From the NCBI GenBank assembly GCA_951813855.1, contig OX638380.1, positions 760,876 through 824,875 of the forward strand: a stretch of 64,000 nt of DNA, in the 5' to 3' direction. The DNA comes from an uncultured Verrucomicrobiae bacterium (GTDB lineage: Bacteria > Verrucomicrobiota > Verrucomicrobiia > Limisphaerales > AAA164-E04). Under the pieces are notes generated by a model. That model was not told the origin of the DNA. It saw only the letters and a list, made by a program, of their open reading frames with translations, and ran no database searches. The translations under genes and the position numbers were made by a program. Below are positions 6,208 to 30,811 of the stretch, one piece after another (the first letter of the stretch is position 1; every line of letters starts with the position of its first letter).

Positions 6208-6463
6208 CGCCTTTATCGCGACTGCACCCATCAGCACCGCCCCACTTGCACTGGGAAGAAGATTCTCAGGCATTTCAATCTCAAGGAAATTCCGATGTTT
6301 GCTTCCGCAGACCATCTGCCATCCGAAAGCCAAACGAGGGGGGTTATATGCCTAAATTTCACCCCGTCAAACATTATTCCTATTTTACCCAGGATTTTTT
6401 CACGCTAATCGCTAGAGGCCAGTGTCACCGATTTTGGGTCATGTTTCGTTTTTTCCCTTCGCC

Positions 6464-8329
6464 ATGGGGACGAAACTTTATCGCCTTCGAGATGGGAAAA
6501 TAAAGCTGGCTTTTTCACTCTCTGGTCGTTATGGGTTCCTCAGGGACGCCAAATTCAACCTCAAGCGGGTGACCGTTCGATTGGTGAAGAGCAGTGAGCG
6601 AAGACGCTGGGATTCGCTGATGGATCAGAACCATTATTTGGGTTTCAAAGGTTTTGCCGGACGCGGTCTGCGTTATGTTGCCGAGTACCGAGGCCGGTGG
6701 TTGGCTTTAGCCGGCTGGCAAAGCGGAGTGTTCCGGTGTCGCCCGCGAGATCGGTGGCTCGGGTGGAAAAAGCGAGAGCAGTTTCGTCGGCTGCATTTGA
6801 TTGCCAACAATACCCGATTCCTCCTGCTTACCGAGCTGGGCGAAGTGCGCAATCTGGGGAGTTGCGTCATGGCCAAAATGCTGCGCCGGCTGAGTGCCGA
6901 TTGGCAACGGACTTGGGGTCATCCGCTGGAATTGGCCGAAACTTTCGTCGATCCTCGATACTTCTCGGGCACGATCTATCGCGCGGGGAATTGGCGGGCG
7001 GCAGGGCGATCGCAAGGCTACGCTCGCAGCAACGGACGCTATACCGCCCGGCACAATAAACGGAAGGAAAGGTACGTTTATCCCTTGCGGCCCCAAGCCT
7101 GTTCTCGATTAAGGAACCGCCAGGACGATCCGTCTTGGGGCCCCCAGGTGCATCGGGTAGAAACGTCCCCGAAACAGTTGAAATCATTGGTGCAACTGCT
7201 AGCGGAAATGGCTGATTTTCGCCGGGCCCAAGGACGCAAACATCGACTGGAAATGGTTCTCGCTATTTGCATCTTAGCTCGATTAGCCGGCAAGGTCGGC
7301 CCTTTGGCGACTTCGCGTTACGCCCAAAAAATGACGCCAAACCAATTGCAGACTCTCGGGGCGTGGCGCCACGCCAAGGGCCGTTGCGTGGCCCCGTCTC
7401 TCGCGACGATTCACCGGGTCATGACCGAGACGGACCCCGAAGCTTTGCCAGCGGTAACTCACCGCTGGGTAACGGCTCAATTGACTTGACAACCCCTGGA
7501 AGCCTTGGCTGCTGACGGTAAGCGGATCAACGGAGCCAATCGCAACAGCAAAGAGCATTTCGAGACCGTCATCCTCGTGCGCCATCAAGATGCGGTGCCC
7601 ATCGCCGTTCGCATTTGCCGGGATCAAGGCGGCGAACAGGCGGCGATGGCGGCTCTCCTGGAGGATGTCGATATCCGGGGAGCCGTCATTACGATCGATG
7701 CGCTCCATACCAACCGAGCCATGGCCGATGCCATCGTGTTGGTTAACGGAGCCCATTTTCTCTTCACGGTCAAAGAGAACAACCCCGAACTCTCTCAATT
7801 TTTGACCAGCCTGGATTGGGATCGAGTGGCCCAGGACCGGTTCACCGAAAATCCGGAGAAAGGACACGGCCGCATCGATCAACGGAGCATTCAGACCTAT
7901 GAACCCCTTCCGGGGGCCGTCACATTACCGCATGTCCTCCAAGTCTTTCGGATCATCCGACACCGCCATCATTGGAACGGTGAGCCCGACACCGTGGAAT
8001 ATGCTTGCGGTGTCACTTCGTTGCCTCGAGAGGCTGCCGACGCTCAACGATTGTTGTCACTCAATCGGGGACATGGGACGGTAGAAAACGGCAATCACCG
8101 CCGTCGCGACGGGATCTTCGGCGAAGATGATTGTCTCATGCGAACTCGCCATGGGCCGACGAACAATGCCCTCTTCAACAACCTGGCCTTGGCGATCATT
8201 CTCCAGTCGGGATACCCTAATTTGGCCGAAGCTACTGACGATTTTCAGACGAATCGGCACCAAGGGATGCGAGCCGTCACGAAAACCACCCCTTTTAAAC
8301 GTCCGAAAAAACGTCCGGAAAAAAGCTGA
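6464..8329 (+). pseudogene. DruA-domain (DUF4338) ISAs1-type transposase, split by an in-frame TGA
   Basis: Two open frames in the same reading frame (to 7489 and from 7490) are separated by one TGA at 7487-7489; reading through restores a single protein of about 620 residues. The N-terminal third is a DUF4338/DruA domain: RRRWDSLMDQNHYLGF, LRYVAEYRGRWLALAGW, QFRRLHLIANNTRFLLL, ELAETFVDPRYFSGTIYRAG. Then comes the ISAs1-associated region (LAEMADFRRAQGRKHRLEM) and, after the stop, the DDE part (AVITIDALHTNRA, KENNPELSQF, EKGHGRIDQRS, VENGNHRRRDGIFGEDD). The usual HW of the last motif is altered (HGTVEN), which fits decay. The start at 6464 is uncertain. The 3' end recurs as a remnant at 38822-39031. 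Confidence 0.82.
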
Positions 8330-10009: not shown

Positions 10010-10199
10010 AAATTATTTTAGCTCAAATTGCCCCAGACTTGCTGCCGAATCACGAAACGTTTTATTAACGAAAGTCAGTCGCTGACTGACTTTGCGAGCT
10101 TTCCATCCTCAGGTTACCTGTCCAGCAATCCAAATGTAGTACCATAATCGTCAAAAAATCTGTTGCCCCCCCTCTTGCTCTCGGATATTTTCTCGCCGT

Positions 10200-12026
10200 A
10201 TGTTCGTTTGCAAAACGAAAACGAGAACCGGTAAAGAGGGCCAAAACTATGACACCTATCGCTTGGTTCGCTCCTACCGGGATAACCATCGGGTTCGTCA
10301 GAAGACGCTGCTCAATTTGGGATCCGACTTCGAGATTGAGTCGAAGCAATGGCCTCTGTTGTGTTCTAAAGTCGTGGAATTGCTTCAAGGTTCTCAACCT
10401 TTGATACCGCTCAAATGCTCTCCGGAGGTGGAGCACAAGGCGAAATATCTTTACGCCCAACTCGTGGAACGCCAAGCCACTCGAATCGAGGAAATCGCCG
10501 GCGAAGATCCTTTAGACCAAGGAGAATTCCAAGCCGTCGATCTGGATAACGCGTCCTTGATCCTCAGCCGCTCGGTGGGAGTCGAGCAGGTCGCTCTCTG
10601 GGCGATCGAAACCCTGGGATTACGAGCGATCCTGCGCCGGCACGGCCTCCGGGAAATTCAATGCCATGCGATCCTCGGCTCGGTCATCGGTCGGATGGCT
10701 GCTCCCGGATCGGAGCGACATACTAATCGGTGGCTCAGAGAGAGCAGTGCTTTGGGCGAACTCTTGAAAAGAGACTTTGAAACCATGGGGCACAGTCAGT
10801 GGTATCGAGCTTCGGACGCCTTGATATCACGGCAGGAGAAAATCGAATCGGACTGGTATCACGGCCTGCAGACGATCTTCGATTTAAAACCGACCATTAC
10901 CCTTTATGACTTGACCAACACCTACTTCGAGGGTCAAGCGCGGAAGATTCCAGAAGCTCAGCGGGGTCGCTCGAAAGAGAAGCGAAGCGATGGTCCCTTA
11001 TTGACGCTGGCTCTGGTTCGGGACAGCCGTGGCTGGGTTCGCCGATCGAAAGTTTTCGCGGGCAACGTGAGCGAAAATCAAACCTTGGCCGCAATGCTGG
11101 AATCGCTGGCGGTTCCGGCGGAAGCGACTGTGATTATGGATTGCGGCATCGCCACGGAGGCCAATCTCCGCTGGCTCCGGGAACGCGGCACTCGCTACCT
11201 GACCGTGAGTCGTCAGCAGGAACGGATCTTCGACCCGGAGGGGGCGACGGAGGTCGAGACGGCTTCGGGACCTTCCGTTTATTTGCGGAAAGAAGTCCAG
11301 GAAAATGGCGAAGTCTTCTTGTATTGTCATTCAGAGCAGCGCGAGGAAAAGGAGCGGGCGATGCAGGAATCGTCCGACCAGAAGTTTACCGCCCAACTCG
11401 AACGGTTACAGGCTGGACTCAGTCGGCCACGCCGAATCAAGCGGCGGGACAAAGTGCACCAGAAAATCGGCCGCCTGAAGCAACAATACTCGGCCGCAGG
11501 ACAACACTACGACATCCAGGTGATCCCCGATGACCAAAATCCCCAAAACGCCAAGAGCATCACTTGGAAACATCATCCCAAGCCTGGCTCCAAAGCCACC
11601 CATCCCGGAGTGTATTGCTTGCGAACCAATCAAGATCAATGGGATGAGTCAACCCTCTGGAAAACCTATATCACGCTGACGGATCTGGAAGCGGTATTCC
11701 GATCCCTTAAATCCGAACTCGGCTTGCGCCCCAGCTACCATCAAACCTCCCGACGCGCGAAGGGACATCTGTTCCTTTCCGTATTGGCCTACCAATTGGT
11801 CCAAACGATAAGAACGCGCTTACGTGCCAAGGGTATCACCGACAGCTGGAATACCATCCGGGACACGTTGAACGACCACAAGCGGGTTACCGGCGTTTAT
11901 CGCCGAATCGATGGCACTACCGTTCACGTGCGCCGAGCCGTTTCCGCGGAACCGAAGCAGCGGGAAATCTATGAAGCTCTGGGCATTAATTCCGCCCCAG
12001 GGGGAGTGCGTAAATCCAAGGCTTAA
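10200..12026 (+). CDS. IS1634-family transposase
   Basis: Intact 608-residue DDE transposase of the IS1634 branch of the IS4 superfamily. Motifs include the N-terminal YRLVRSYRDNHRVRQKTLLN, the first catalytic aspartate in ITLYDLTNTYFEG, the second in VIMDCGIATEANLRWLRERG, and the glutamate region ITLTDLEAVFRSLKSELGLR followed by HLFLSVLAYQLVQTIRTRL. The ATG at 10200 gives a normal IS1634 N-terminus. It lies inside clear terminal inverted repeats and may still be mobile. Confidence 0.93.
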   Translation: MFVCKTKTRTGKEGQNYDTYRLVRSYRDNHRVRQKTLLNLGSDFEIESKQWPLLCSKVVELLQGSQPLIPLKCSPEVEHKAKYLYAQLVERQATRIEEIAGEDPLDQGEFQAVDLDNASLILSRSVGVEQVALWAIETLGLRAILRRHGLREIQCHAILGSVIGRMAAPGSERHTNRWLRESSALGELLKRDFETMGHSQWYRASDALISRQEKIESDWYHGLQTIFDLKPTITLYDLTNTYFEGQARKIPEAQRGRSKEKRSDGPLLTLALVRDSRGWVRRSKVFAGNVSENQTLAAMLESLAVPAEATVIMDCGIATEANLRWLRERGTRYLTVSRQQERIFDPEGATEVETASGPSVYLRKEVQENGEVFLYCHSEQREEKERAMQESSDQKFTAQLERLQAGLSRPRRIKRRDKVHQKIGRLKQQYSAAGQHYDIQVIPDDQNPQNAKSITWKHHPKPGSKATHPGVYCLRTNQDQWDESTLWKTYITLTDLEAVFRSLKSELGLRPSYHQTSRRAKGHLFLSVLAYQLVQTIRTRLRAKGITDSWNTIRDTLNDHKRVTGVYRRIDGTTVHVRRAVSAEPKQREIYEALGINSAPGGVRKSKA

Positions 12027-12110
12027 CCTTAGGCTTAAATCACAAAATGATGGAAATGTAATGCCCTACGATTTTTAAAATGATCGAATTCCTTGGAAAA
12101 AACGCATTTT

Positions 12111-12153
12111 CTAGACCAGACTGACAAACTTGGGTTAGGGGGTCGGGGAGGAA
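12111..12153 (-). repeat. Right terminal inverted repeat of IS1634-type element
   Basis: Reverse complement of the left repeat at 9961-10009, with the same three conserved blocks. Confidence 0.8.
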
Positions 12154-12190
12154 AATCTGTCGAATCCAATTGATTCGTGATACTCATGAC

Positions 12191-12360
12191 TTTTCGTTCG
12201 AAACGAACGAAATCGGGCCGCAAATCGAGAGTTACCTTACGCCCCCTGTGCCTTGGAGCACCTGGGGGGGACTTGTGCCTCGATTTGTTGGCCACGATCA
12301 ATGCCCAGTAGAAAGTTTGCGTCTTGGAACGCCAGTACCGGGATTGGCAATCGTCGTGGC
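12191..12360 (+). ncRNA. Candidate bridge RNA of the IS110 element
   Basis: Three nested or consecutive stem-loops precede the IS110 transposase start (12387). (1) Perfect 9-bp stem 12192-12200/12204-12212. (2) Stem CAAATCGAG 12221-12229 with CTCGATTTG 12279-12287, enclosing an internal loop and an inner hairpin (CCCCC 242-246/GGGGG 264-268; GTGC/GCAC around hexaloop CTTGGA, 12252-12257). (3) Stem GCCACGA 12291-12297 with TCGTGGC 12354-12360, extended by CAATgCCC/GGGATTG (12299-12306/12340-12346), an internal loop, and GCGT/ACGC around the same hexaloop CTTGGA (12323-12328). A 5' stem-loop followed by two internal-loop stems in about 170 nt just upstream of the recombinase is the layout described for IS621-type bridge RNAs. 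The pairing is seen in the sequence; the function is inferred. Confidence 0.6.
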
Positions 12361-12633
12361 GGCTCAGCACTGACAGCACCCAAATTATGGATCACTATCA
12401 CTACACCGTAGGAATCGACTGGGGGTCGACGAACCATCAGATTTCTCTCATTGATGCCCAAGGCAAATTATGTGGCGAACGATCCTTTCCGCATGGCGGC
12501 CAGGGCCTGCGTGATTCAACCCAATGGATCAAAACCGTCACGAACGCCGAGCCGCACCAGATCGGGATCGCCATCGAGGTGCCTCACGGCCCGGTCGTGG
12601 AAACCATGATGGAATCCGAATTCAAGGTCCACG

Positions 12634-12643
12634 CCATCAACCC
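12634..12643 (+). repeat. 10-bp target-site duplication, left copy
   Basis: CCATCAACCC immediately left of the ISAs1 element. The identical right copy is at 14822-14831. The adjacent G makes an 11-bp reading possible. Confidence 0.92.
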
Positions 12644-14821
12644 CAGGAATATTCAAAAGTCCAAATAAACCGAAAAATGCCCTTGAAAACTCCAGATAAA
12701 CACCTTAGCAACGAGAATCTCGACATTGAATTGCTCCGTCCCGAAACCACGACTGCGTCATTGGGGATCAATTCCAAGTTGATCAATCCTCGCAGAGGTG
12801 ACTTATCGAATTATGGGATGTCGTTTCGGCGGCGAGAGGGTCGATACCTCAATGCCTTCGTGAAGAGCCGACGCACCCCTTTTCTCAGGAGCTGTTGCGG
12901 TCCCGATTCCGATCGAGAACGGTACCGGTCGTTCAGTTAGTCAAAGGTTTGAGGATAGCATTGAGAGCTTCCTCGGGGTGAGCCGCATAATGGCGAGTGG
13001 ACGGCGGCAAATGCTCAAAGCGATTTTCGGTCCTGACGATCGAGATGGCGGCGTTGGACAGGCAGGCCAAGTTGCGAGGTAAATGGCCAACCCGCACGCG
13101 ACATCGATCTTCGTCATAGGTGAAATCACGCACGTAATGGAGACGATTTTCGAGGTGCCAATGGTTACGGACGAGAGCGAGCAGTTGTTCCGGGCTGGCT
13201 TTTTCAGCACTTAGGGAGGTGAGGCAGTAAACGACTTCATGGCTGGTTTTATCCGTCTTCAGAACGTAACGTTCGCGTTCGATGCGAATGGCCTGTTGGC
13301 GACCGTAAAGCTGGCAATAATTATCCCACTTGGAGCCGGAAATATCGAGGGCCAGACAACGGCGGTTTTCGATGCGACCGTGTCCCTTTTCGGCGGGTTG
13401 ATCGAAGCACGCCGCGGTACTCCAATCAATGGCTTTCAAATCATCATGGATGGTCGGTTGATTATTTTTGACGGAACTGGTCACGTAGTCGGCGGCACAG
13501 TCCTCCAGCAGGCTACGGGCGGTTTCCTGTTGGACATGCATGGCATCGAGAGTCACGACGCGCCCTGCCAGATCAAGTTTCCGAGACAATTCGCGCACCG
13601 CTGGAATTTCGTTGGTTTTATCGGGCACTTGAGTCTGACCGAGAACCAATCCGGTGCTATGCTCGACTGCCGCCACCATCATCCGGTTTTCGTTTTCTAA
13701 TTGAGCTGAAGCCCCACGAATATCCTTGCCGTCAATGGCCACTGGAGTTTCCTTGTCGCTTTGTTGTCGGACCCATTTACCAATCGTTCGATCCAGCGTG
13801 TCGGGCTCCAATTTAGCAAGGATATAATGAAAAGTAGAGGCCGCCGGAGCCGTGTAGCATTGCCGACGGGGACTCCAAAAGGCTCCGACCGCCTTCAATT
13901 GCTCTTGAGTCATTCTGGCGGCGAATTCACCGAAAGCGGTGACGCCGCGATACCCGGCTAAGCGAGCCGCAATCGCGATCGCCAGGAAGCAGGCTAGACG
14001 GTAACGCTTCCCGCGAGCTTGGCGGAAGTCGTCGATGCTTTCCAGAAACGTATAGAAACTGTGCAGTTCCGGGGTCGAAGGGATCTGGGCCATAATCCCG
14101 GCTTGCCAGTCTTCCGCCGCCGATTCGCGGCTGAGGATGGTGGCGGCATCGGGTCGTAACGGATAGGCGAGAACTTGCTTCGGTTGTCCGTTCTGGAGCC
14201 AACTCACCGACTTCCCCGGCACTCGGGAAAAGCCTCGAGTCAAACCCAAGAACTGCCAATTCGCGGCCTGATAACAGGTGCCGGCAAACTTCGAAGGATC
14301 GACGAATGTTTCGGCCAAATAAACCGGATAACCGTGCACTTGGCGCATATCGGCTTCCAGACGGCGCAGGCTCAAACCGAGCGCCCGCGAGGCCAAGTTG
14401 GGGAGCCGACCCTCCTTCAGCACCAAAAAGCGGGCGTTGTTCGCAATCAAATGCAGCCGGGAAAATTGCTGCTCGGCCGACCAGCCGATCCACTCGTCGC
14501 GAACTCCCACCTTGAAGGCCCCGGCCTGCCAACCCAACAAGGCGAGCCAGGTTTCGTCGTAAATTGCGACATGGCGCAAGGCCTTCCCGAACAGGCTGTG
14601 GAACGGAAGATAATGATATTGCGACATTAACGAATCCCAGCGCAGTCTTTCCTCTTCGCCACGGACAAGTCGAACCGTTACGTCCCGTAACGAAAAGGCC
14701 GCGGCATCCGGAATAATTGATTCCATGGCGAAATCAATAACGGAGAAACTTTTGAATGTCCAGAAAAAAATCGACCCTATTTCGGCTTCTTTGTTGAGCC
14801 AACGACTTTTGAATGGCCCTG
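12644..14821. mobile_element. ISAs1-type insertion sequence with DruA-fused transposase
   Basis: A 2178-bp element inserted in the IS110 transposase gene. The ends are inverted repeats: the left starts CAGGAATATTCAAAAGTC, and the right, as reverse complement, starts CAGGGCCATTCAAAAGTC (15 of 18 identical). A second copy of the sub-terminal motif ACTTTTGAATG lies inside the right end at about 14748 (terminal one at 14805), possibly a transposase-binding repeat. The element is flanked by the 10-bp duplication CCATCAACCC, a length typical of the ISAs1 family. Confidence 0.92.
12933..14726 (-). CDS. ISAs1-family transposase with N-terminal DruA (DUF4338) domain
   Basis: Intact 597-residue protein. 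Residues about 14-200 form a DUF4338/DruA domain: RLRWDSLMSQYHYLPF, LRHVAIYDETWLALLGWQAG, FSRLHLIANNARFLVL, YLAETFVDPSKFAGTCYQAA, NWQFLGLTRGFSR. Then follow the ISAs1-associated segment (IDDFRQARGKRYRLACFL), the first DDE aspartate in VAIDGKDIRGA, VVTLDAMHVQQET, KGHGRIENRRC and NHWHLENRLHYVRDFTYDED. The ATG at 14726 is preferred: a longer frame from 14879 would run out of the element into the IS110 half. DruA is otherwise known from the Druantia anti-phage system; its role in a transposase is not known to me. Confidence 0.9.
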   Translation of the reverse strand: MESIIPDAAAFSLRDVTVRLVRGEEERLRWDSLMSQYHYLPFHSLFGKALRHVAIYDETWLALLGWQAGAFKVGVRDEWIGWSAEQQFSRLHLIANNARFLVLKEGRLPNLASRALGLSLRRLEADMRQVHGYPVYLAETFVDPSKFAGTCYQAANWQFLGLTRGFSRVPGKSVSWLQNGQPKQVLAYPLRPDAATILSRESAAEDWQAGIMAQIPSTPELHSFYTFLESIDDFRQARGKRYRLACFLAIAIAARLAGYRGVTAFGEFAARMTQEQLKAVGAFWSPRRQCYTAPAASTFHYILAKLEPDTLDRTIGKWVRQQSDKETPVAIDGKDIRGASAQLENENRMMVAAVEHSTGLVLGQTQVPDKTNEIPAVRELSRKLDLAGRVVTLDAMHVQQETARSLLEDCAADYVTSSVKNNQPTIHDDLKAIDWSTAACFDQPAEKGHGRIENRRCLALDISGSKWDNYCQLYGRQQAIRIERERYVLKTDKTSHEVVYCLTSLSAEKASPEQLLALVRNHWHLENRLHYVRDFTYDEDRCRVRVGHLPRNLACLSNAAISIVRTENRFEHLPPSTRHYAAHPEEALNAILKPLTN

Positions 14822-14831
14822 CCATCAACCC
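14822..14831 (+). repeat. 10-bp target-site duplication, right copy
   Basis: CCATCAACCC, identical to 12634-12643. The IS110 frame continues directly from here. Confidence 0.92.
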
Positions 14832-16047
14832 CAAGCAACTGGATCGCTTCCGGGATCGGTTTTCTCCCGTCGGCGCCAAGGACGACCGCCGGGACGCTCG
14901 AGTGCTGGGAGATGCCCTCAGGACGGACCCTCAGGCCTTGCACCAACTCAATCCCACCAGCCCTCAGATCATCGTGCTCCGTGACTTATCGCGAACGGCC
15001 GAAGATCTCACCTCCTCGAAAACGCAGTTCACCAATAAGATCAAACAACATCTCTGGCGCTATTTCCCCCAGTTTCTGGAATTGGAGCCGGATTTGTCCA
15101 AGTCCTGGATCCGCGAACTCTGGAACCGCATTCCCACTCCCGAAAAAGCCCAACGAATCCGCGTCGGCACCGTAGCCAAACTGCTCGCCCGGCATAAAGT
15201 CAGGAAAATCTCCGCCGAGCAAATCCTCAAGATACTGCGTCAACCGGCGGTGACCGTCGCCGAGGGTACCGTTGAGGGGGCCATGGGGGCGCTCAATACC
15301 GCCTTCAAACAACTGGCCGTGACCATGGAAGAACTCAATGCCACGCTGTTGCAGTTAGACGAGACGACCGAGAAACTGGCGGCTTCCCTGCAAGCCAGCT
15401 CTCCCGAAGAGGGATCGTCGGCAACAGACCAAACTCCGGCTCTCCATCAGGATATCGCCATTCTCAGATCAATTCCCGGGGTGGGTCGAATCGTGCTTGG
15501 CATCCTGTTGGCCGAAGCTTTTCATCGGTTCGAAAAACGTGATCGAGCGGCCCTGCGCTGCCTCACCGGAATCGCTCCCGTAACCCGGCGCTCCGGAAAA
15601 CAACATTTCGTGGTTCGACGAATGGCGGCTCACCCCCGACTGCGGGATGCCAGGTATCATTGGGCCAGAGTGGCCGCCCAAAGAGATCCTATCAGCAAAC
15701 GCAAGTATACCGCGCTTCGCCAACGGGGACATCAACATGCTCGAGCCTTGAGAAGCGTCGCGGATCGGCTCATCTCCGTCGCTTGTGCCATGCTGCAAAA
15801 CGGTTCCCTCTACGATCCTTCGCTGGAACAGGCAACCGCCTCTAACCGATCAAATGGCTGATGCCAACCGATTCCGGATCATCATCCCATCAATCTCGGC
15901 TCACGATGGACACCGGCAACCCAAGCCAACGGCATTCGATGAAACGGGCTGTCAGCACCTGTAGCATACCAGCCAATCCGCGATAGCAATCGCCTGATGT
16001 TAGCTCTATCCGAAAATCTGAAAAACGGGCTGAAAAACCCCTTGAAC

Positions 16048-30613: not shown

Positions 30614-30698
30614 GGCAAGGTACTCAAGCGGTCAACGAGGGCAGACTGTAAATCTGCTGGCTAAGCCTTCACAGGTTCGAATCCTGTCCTTGCCACCA
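30614..30698 (+). tRNA. tRNA-Tyr (anticodon GTA)
   Basis: Class II tRNA with acceptor stem GGCAAGG/CCTTGCC, anticodon loop CTGTAAA (anticodon 30648-30650), a long variable arm, T-loop GGTTCGAATCC, discriminator A and an encoded CCA (30696-30698). Confidence 0.95.
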
Positions 30699-30739: not shown

Positions 30740-30811
30740 AGCCAATGATCGGATTTGAACCGATGACCGACGGTTTACGAAACCGTTGCTCTACCACTGA
30801 GCTACATTGGC
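30740..30811 (-). tRNA. tRNA-Thr (anticodon CGT)
   Basis: The reverse complement folds as a standard cloverleaf: acceptor GCCAATG/CATTGGC, D-arm GCTCAGTGGTAGAGC, anticodon stem ACGGT/ACCGT with loop TTCGTAA (anticodon at plus 30777-30779), and T-arm with GGTTCAAATCC. CCA is encoded at plus 30737-30739. Convergent with tRNA-Tyr. Confidence 0.94.

Follow-up and report, generated by a model that had tools for sequence, protein, structure and literature searches.

We propose that positions 12191-12366 (+ strand) of the window, the 64,000-nucleotide stretch of DNA analysed here (positions 760876-824875 of a single-contig 4.89-Mb genome), are the gene of a bridge RNA of the IS110 group, a predicted RNA with a donor and a target internal loop, and we put the probability of this reading at about 95%. 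It is supported by the fold, by covariation and by a covariance model built on relatives only, and the predicted guides match donor ends and insertion sites. A guide RNA in front of a broken IS110 transposase had been suggested in the initial annotation, and the three comparisons it recommended (compensatory changes among relatives, a covariance-model search and a match of guides to DNA) all speak for the suggestion. By the proposed mechanism, one internal loop would pair with the joined element ends (the donor) and the other with the insertion site (the target), and the DEDD recombinase of the unbroken sister copies would join donor and target at a CC core; transcription from the end junction, binding by the recombinase and guided recombination are carried over from IS621 and may be expected here by analogy.

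The element in the window and its state

The RNA gene lies in the remnant of an IS110-group insertion sequence (12138..16046, + strand), delimited by BLASTN and by alignment with sister copies in the same genome (L015-L022). The remnant consists of two pieces, about 12138-12645 and 14821-16046, with 99.6% and 99.2% identity, respectively, to the sister L015. As judged from the sisters, the full element opens with a left end beginning CC-TGTACCATTTT and has about 310 nt ahead of the ATG; a transposase gene of about 1.3 kb follows, and the right end closes with TTGAAAATGGTAGAAAGT. In the window copy, about 60 nt are missing from the left end and 13 nt from the right, both donor sequences included. 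Its truncated left end adjoins an IS1634-family element (10131..12139, + strand; NCBIfam NF033559), of which a 97.7% identical 2009-bp copy lies in L022. An ISAs1-family element (12646..14820, - strand), flanked by a 13-nt direct duplication (GCCATCAACCCCA, at 12633-12645 and 14821-14833), sits inside the transposase gene and splits the ORF into a 5' part (12387..12668, + strand; 93 codons and then a stop, Pfam PF01548 profile positions 1-83) and a 3' part (listed as 14725..15861, + strand, with IS110 sequence from about 14821; Pfam PF01548 and PF02371). The transposase is thus broken, as first noted, but the damage had been understated, since both element ends are gone too; with both donor ends and the ORF broken, the window copy is immobile.

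Several further observations were made on this part of the genome. At its N-terminus, joined to DDE transposase domains, the ISAs1 transposase ORF (listed as 12933-14879, - strand, with a TTG start) also matches the Druantia defence protein DruA (PF14236, 85.6 bits against a cut-off of 27). The host genome is crowded with insertion sequences (for example at G000:C1:767286-768495, window about 6411-7620), and one other element beside L015 has about 40 matching places in it. In full copies of the IS110 element in this genome (for example L015, 1197-1312), the interval from the -10-like box of the left end to the RNA contains a long, nearly perfect palindrome, CTCCCCGACCCCCTGCAGGGGGTCGGGGAG, and the left half of this palindrome is gone from the window copy.

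Because the putative junction promoter is lost and the ends and the ORF are broken, the most likely status of the window RNA gene is that of a recent relic, able to act only in trans, and this only if a neighbouring promoter reads into it. It is even probable that the gene is wholly inert, left over from a once-working element and neither transcribed nor used, given that the ORF is broken and that the putative promoter of the family, placed at the junction of the ends, cannot form in a copy without them. Against complete inertness, the region 12190-12366 shows no difference in 177 nt from L015, whose ORF is uninterrupted, and the IS1634 transposase gene, which has the same orientation as the RNA gene and ends 165 nt 5' of it, could provide read-through. 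The question of inertness concerns the use of the RNA and not its identity, and either answer is compatible with a bridge-RNA gene.

Relatives used for comparison

A search of genome contigs with a single protein retrieved no relative; the same search with alignment A1 (55 proteins) returned 160. The best 80 of these, genome loci with 40-57% identity, were studied together with one viral contig. Six of these 81 relatives (L051-L131) were not entered, namely L054 (at a contig edge), L090-L093 (the same element as L089) and L106, and the guide table also leaves out L061, L078, L099, L109 and L128, in which the upstream part is altered or a motif is missing; its final size is 70 relatives plus the 7 copies of the element's own genome. 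At about 2260-2390 of L061, the end of the donor loop is normal and the upstream half of the RNA looks swapped for unrelated sequence. In 386 other genomes from the phylum, neither the protein (E <= 1e-40) nor the RNA model (E <= 1e-4, scored on 6 candidates per genome) matched; related genomes hold distant relatives only (about 25-38% identity), and no usable empty sites were found in three genomes of the same genus.

Fold and covariation of the RNA

The minimum free energy of 12185-12370 is -77.5 kcal/mol, compared with -59.7 +/- 4.3 kcal/mol for 200 dinucleotide shuffles (z -4.1), none of which folds as well. The fold contains the perfect 5' stem-loop and the two stems, each with an internal loop and an apical hairpin, that had been described at the outset, in the order proposed then: a 9-bp stem-loop (12192..12212, + strand; 12192-12200 with 12204-12212), a target-binding stem-loop (12220..12289, + strand; 14 basal and 3 apical pairs) and a donor-binding stem-loop (12291..12360, + strand; 8 basal, 4 apical and 3 inner pairs). 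The hexaloop CTTGGA, to which attention had been drawn, does cap both hairpins in the window (12252-12257 and 12323-12328), but its presence in both is particular to this lineage and it is not conserved: the first loop reads CTTTGA in L018 and L019, and apical loops differ among relatives, so we discarded it as a meaningful feature.

The 5' stem-loop stands outside the consensus that was counted, which comprises 32 pairs in five helices. Across 47 aligned RNAs, 92.8% of the 1501 cells are paired, and 27 of the 32 pairs show two-sided compensatory change; none of 500 shuffles attains any of the five covariation measures, and sliding the 3' partners as a control lowers pairing to 27.7-44.8%. In the target stem-loop, the basal pairs are paired in 93.4% of cells, 11 of them with two-sided change, and the apical pairs in 87.9%. 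The corresponding values for the donor stem-loop are 96.0% for the basal pairs (two-sided change in 8/8), 99.5% for the apical pairs and 77.1% for the inner pairs. A local CCT/GGA pair in the right guide, added by RNAalifold to alignment A2, was excluded from the counted structure because it sits in a variable guide.

A covariance model (R2), trained on 33 relatives and on zero sequences of this genome, with a structure from RNAalifold, has a single match within the 64-kb window, at 12186-12374 (141.1 bits, E 2.9e-29). In the whole genome it finds 7 matches, every one just 5' of an IS110 copy. Rfam (4227 families, gathering thresholds) gave no match at the RNA locus, and this library was therefore of no use for naming the RNA; its only output was two tRNA genes, which lie on opposite strands 44 nt apart, at window 30614-30695 (+) and 30740-30811 (-).

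Donor guides and element ends

The predicted left donor guide, GTAGAAAGT (12308..12316, + strand), has the same sequence as the terminus of the right end in the sister copies, and the predicted right donor guide, GTACCGG (12335..12341, + strand), is complementary to their left-end start CCTGTAC at all but one position. These segments are close to 12307-12318 and 12333-12339, where the donor guides had first been placed. The single mismatch is a C at 12339 where L017, L020 and most relatives have an A; five of the seven own copies, the window copy included, carry this C, and the left donor guide of the own copies has no mismatch.

The same agreement extends through the relatives. Taken as 8 nt, the reverse complement of the right donor guide occurs upstream of the RNA exactly in 61 of 69 relatives and with one mismatch at most in the other 8, compared with exact matches of 0.6% for letter-shuffled guides and 1.2% for the guides of other elements. 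Foreign guides match the left region within one mismatch in about half of cases (51% at one mismatch), and weight can therefore be given to exact matches only. For the left donor guide (9 nt), 50 of 67 relatives have a right end identical to it (shuffled guides, 0.3%) and 7 have one with a single mismatch; in the remaining 10, no right end within one mismatch of the guide was found in the stretch searched. Guide and end change together, as in ATACAGGG with CCCTGTAT, GAACAGGG with CCCTGTTC and GTACTGGA with TCCAGTAC, and further examples of left donor guides shared with right ends are GTGAACAGT, GTAGATTGT, ACAGGAAGT and ATAGGAGGT. In L064 (3900-3930), a right end is followed directly by CC-TGTACC, that is, a tandem right-end/left-end junction in which the donor reads AGT-CC-TGTACC.

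Target guides and insertion sites

Element ends were set by the donor guides alone, the target guides were compared with the flanks afterwards, and duplicate guide-target pairs entered the count once; the tandem element L064 and the poor matcher L113 were retained. In the window, the columns that match the flanks of relatives correspond to a left target guide TTACGCCCCC (12237..12246, + strand; core-pairing CC at 12245-12246) and a right target guide GGGGGGG (12264..12270, + strand; core-pairing GG at 12269-12270). The segments originally suggested, 12230-12241 and 12269-12278, are shifted and overlap only in part with these guides, because in the free fold the C-run is paired with the G-run, which hid the target guides from that first inspection.

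Over the five bases beyond the core, the right target guide matches its flank at a mean of 3.98/5 positions versus 1.82 when permuted, with 17 perfect pairs versus 1.0 expected (n = 44 distinct pairs). The left target guide, over nine bases and at an offset of either 0 or 1, reaches 6.29/9 versus 4.68 (n = 68), and in each test none of 20,000 permutations is as good. The signal is equally strong when C-tract guides are removed (39 pairs, 4.10 versus 1.72; 30 pairs, 7.0 versus 4.14). One Thermoanaerobaculia genome has five copies with an identical RNA, and all five sites read C[CG]GCGCA-CC on the left and CC-CGGT on the right, equal to the guides. The own copies by themselves, which are few and much alike (n = 6), make for a weak test of the target match, the observed value being reached by 566 of 20,000 permutations; the guide of L017 is CCTCCGT against a right flank of CCCCCCT, and the target guide of L019 is shortened and off-register. 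The window copy has lost its insertion flanks, and its right target guide is that of L015, whose right flank is CCCCCCC.

These matches also bear on another view of the RNA, in which it would be a structured 5' leader controlling transposase expression, such as an attenuator or an antisense RNA of the type proposed for the small RNAs of ISPpu9, and not a guide. Its high degree of structure and its position directly 5' of the start codon would suit such a role; however, the sequences of the loops covary with the ends of the same element and with its insertion sites, which a cis-acting leader would not need, and we regard the leader view as very improbable.

Core, handshake bases and junction promoter

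The core could be read from L016, which sits within an IS1634 copy. Its empty site, CCGTCGCCC-CC-TCCGGGTCG, is given by seven uninterrupted IS1634 copies in the same genome, one of which is the left neighbour in the window. The insertion is scarless, a 2-nt CC being the sole sequence common to both junctions; the core is therefore CC and not the CT of IS621. At left junctions in general, C occupies core positions 1 and 2 in 62/64 and 64/64 cases, respectively.

In IS621, a base located 3' to the right donor guide pairs with the target after strand exchange, at the position left of the core (PMC11208158). The equivalent donor-loop handshake base in the window is a G (12342, + strand), which would pair with a C left of the core; this base had first been counted into the right donor guide as its final position, a role rejected because a handshake base (Hiraizumi et al.) fits better. 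Of 73 elements, 69 have a Watson-Crick match between it and the base to the left of the core, compared with a permuted mean of 51.9 and maximum of 61 (0/20,000 permutations reach 69); near-identical copies were kept and a left end within one mismatch of 8 was required, and the count leans slightly to agreement because this end filter includes the handshake base. A second donor-loop handshake base gave no signal (16 observed versus 15.7 expected). In the target loop, the putative handshake bases AC (12271..12272, + strand) are complementary to the last two bases of the left donor, GT, a combination present in 58 of 65 elements.

On 64 joined ends, inspection by eye places a TTGACA-like box to the left of the core, at a distance of 19-14 nt, and TACCnT to the right, 5-10 nt from the core start, with a spacing of 17 nt between the -35-like and the -10-like box. 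The former, in the right end, and the latter, in the left end, would meet once the ends join. In the window copy, neither half of this putative promoter is left in a usable place.

The recombinase and comparison with known systems

The protein of the intact sister L001 has DEDD RuvC-like and Tnp domains (PF01548, 110.1 bits; PF02371, 49.1 bits) and matches NCBIfam NF033542, 'IS110 family RNA-guided transposase' (154 bits, cut-off 140). Its only solved relatives at E <= 0.001 are IS621 (PDB 8wt6, E 2.1e-7) and the transposase of ISCro4 (PDB 9t56, E 1.8e-6), an IS110-family homologue to which it is likened by sequence alone. The element is of a known kind, by protein and RNA alike a member of the IS110 group outside the IS621 subgroup; it was not filed in that subgroup because the CT core, whose second T is almost invariant there, is absent.

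The likeness to IS621 nevertheless extends to many features as described for that element (PMC11208160, PMC11208158). An RNA in the left end lies 5' of a DEDD/Tnp recombinase, its parts follow in the order of 5' stem-loop, target loop and donor loop, left guides equal the top strand and right guides are complementary to it, with a handshake base, and the putative -35 box in the right end and -10 box in the left end, assigned by eye here, would match the arrangement reported for IS621. The catalytic residues D11, D104, D107 and S340 are aligned, and E64 was placed by eye. In contrast, the core is CC rather than CT, C-tract target guides occur in 40 of the 77 elements examined here, the right donor guide is a contiguous 7 nt where that of IS621 is described as discontiguous, the right target guide has about 7 nt including the core where the IS621 structure has 4 base pairs, and the recombinase has about 428-457 aa, compared with 328 residues in the IS621 PDB chain.

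The seekRNAs of the IS1111 and IS110 families are described as following the same general mechanism, with the RNA upstream in IS110 types and, in IS1111 types, downstream with the order of target matches reversed (Siddiquee et al. 2024, PMC11187229). An IS1111-type element is a very improbable alternative: the own copies do show a perfect subterminal inverted repeat of 8 bp (ACCATTTT / AAAATGGT), within the 7-17 bp reported for IS1111 (Durrant et al., PMC11208160), but relatives mostly have only a short GGT/ACC part of it, and the RNA is in the left end, 5' of the transposase, in the window copy, the 6 sister copies that the RNA model matches and the relatives used.

C-tract targets and guide change

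In the 40 C-tract RNAs, the right guide reads CCCCC as its target, and the predicted pairing of the left guide's last five bases with the right guide has a mean probability of 0.79, compared with 0.33 in the other 37; the value for the window RNA is 0.81. The median C run at the right flank is 7, equal to the guide length, for C-tract elements (n = 30) and 2 for the others (n = 35). The element's own genome has C-runs of at least 10 at 13 places, one of which is an IS110 junction; the longest among the runs listed is one of 23 C (G000:C1:3517890-3517912, minus strand). In L058, L059 and L061-L063 (Rhodothermales), the right flanks open with C-runs of about 12-15, beyond what a 7-nt guide needs. 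In the literature searched, we found no report of C-tract-targeting IS110 elements, which is not proof of absence.

The sister copies also present a case of guide change. The L016 RNA differs from that of the window and L015 at three bases in 177, all in the right target guide; between the genes of L015 and L016, 1296 aligned positions include 53 differences, and there are gaps in addition. The L016 guide reads CGCCC-CC-TCCG, an 11-nt match to its own site in IS1634, and L017, 99.3% identical to L016, has the same guide yet sits at a C-run, with 4/7 positions matching. The simplest story for this one case is that the guide was altered while the element sat at a C-run and that a daughter copy then used the new guide. 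This 11-mer has 15 occurrences in the genome, as against 8 for a reversed-pattern control; 6 of the 15 fall within IS1634 copies, and the IS1634 element of the window holds it as an unoccupied target, CGCCCCCTCCG (11236..11246, - strand; 11-nt match), at the site that L016 occupies in another IS1634 copy.

A tentative and rather unlikely extension of the bridge-RNA reading would combine these observations into a C-tract-seeking lineage with a self-closing target loop, re-aimed by a few bases of the G-run, with the window copy as an orphan guide. In such a loop, the C5 of the left guide would pair with the G7 of the right guide and would open only on a C-run, and the orphan window RNA would steer the recombinases of sister copies in trans.

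Implications

Together, these results would add a large, well supported family to the bridge RNAs, one that keeps the rules of IS621 (two loops and a handshake base) and brings to them a CC core, shorter and often homopolymeric target guides, guides complementary to each other and a change of guide between sisters. Owing to its different core and shorter guides, the family may serve as a test bed for the recombinase's own demands on the core, and likewise for how RNAs with mutually complementary target guides stay usable, and the sister copies in one genome would offer a natural example of a guide changing together with its target.
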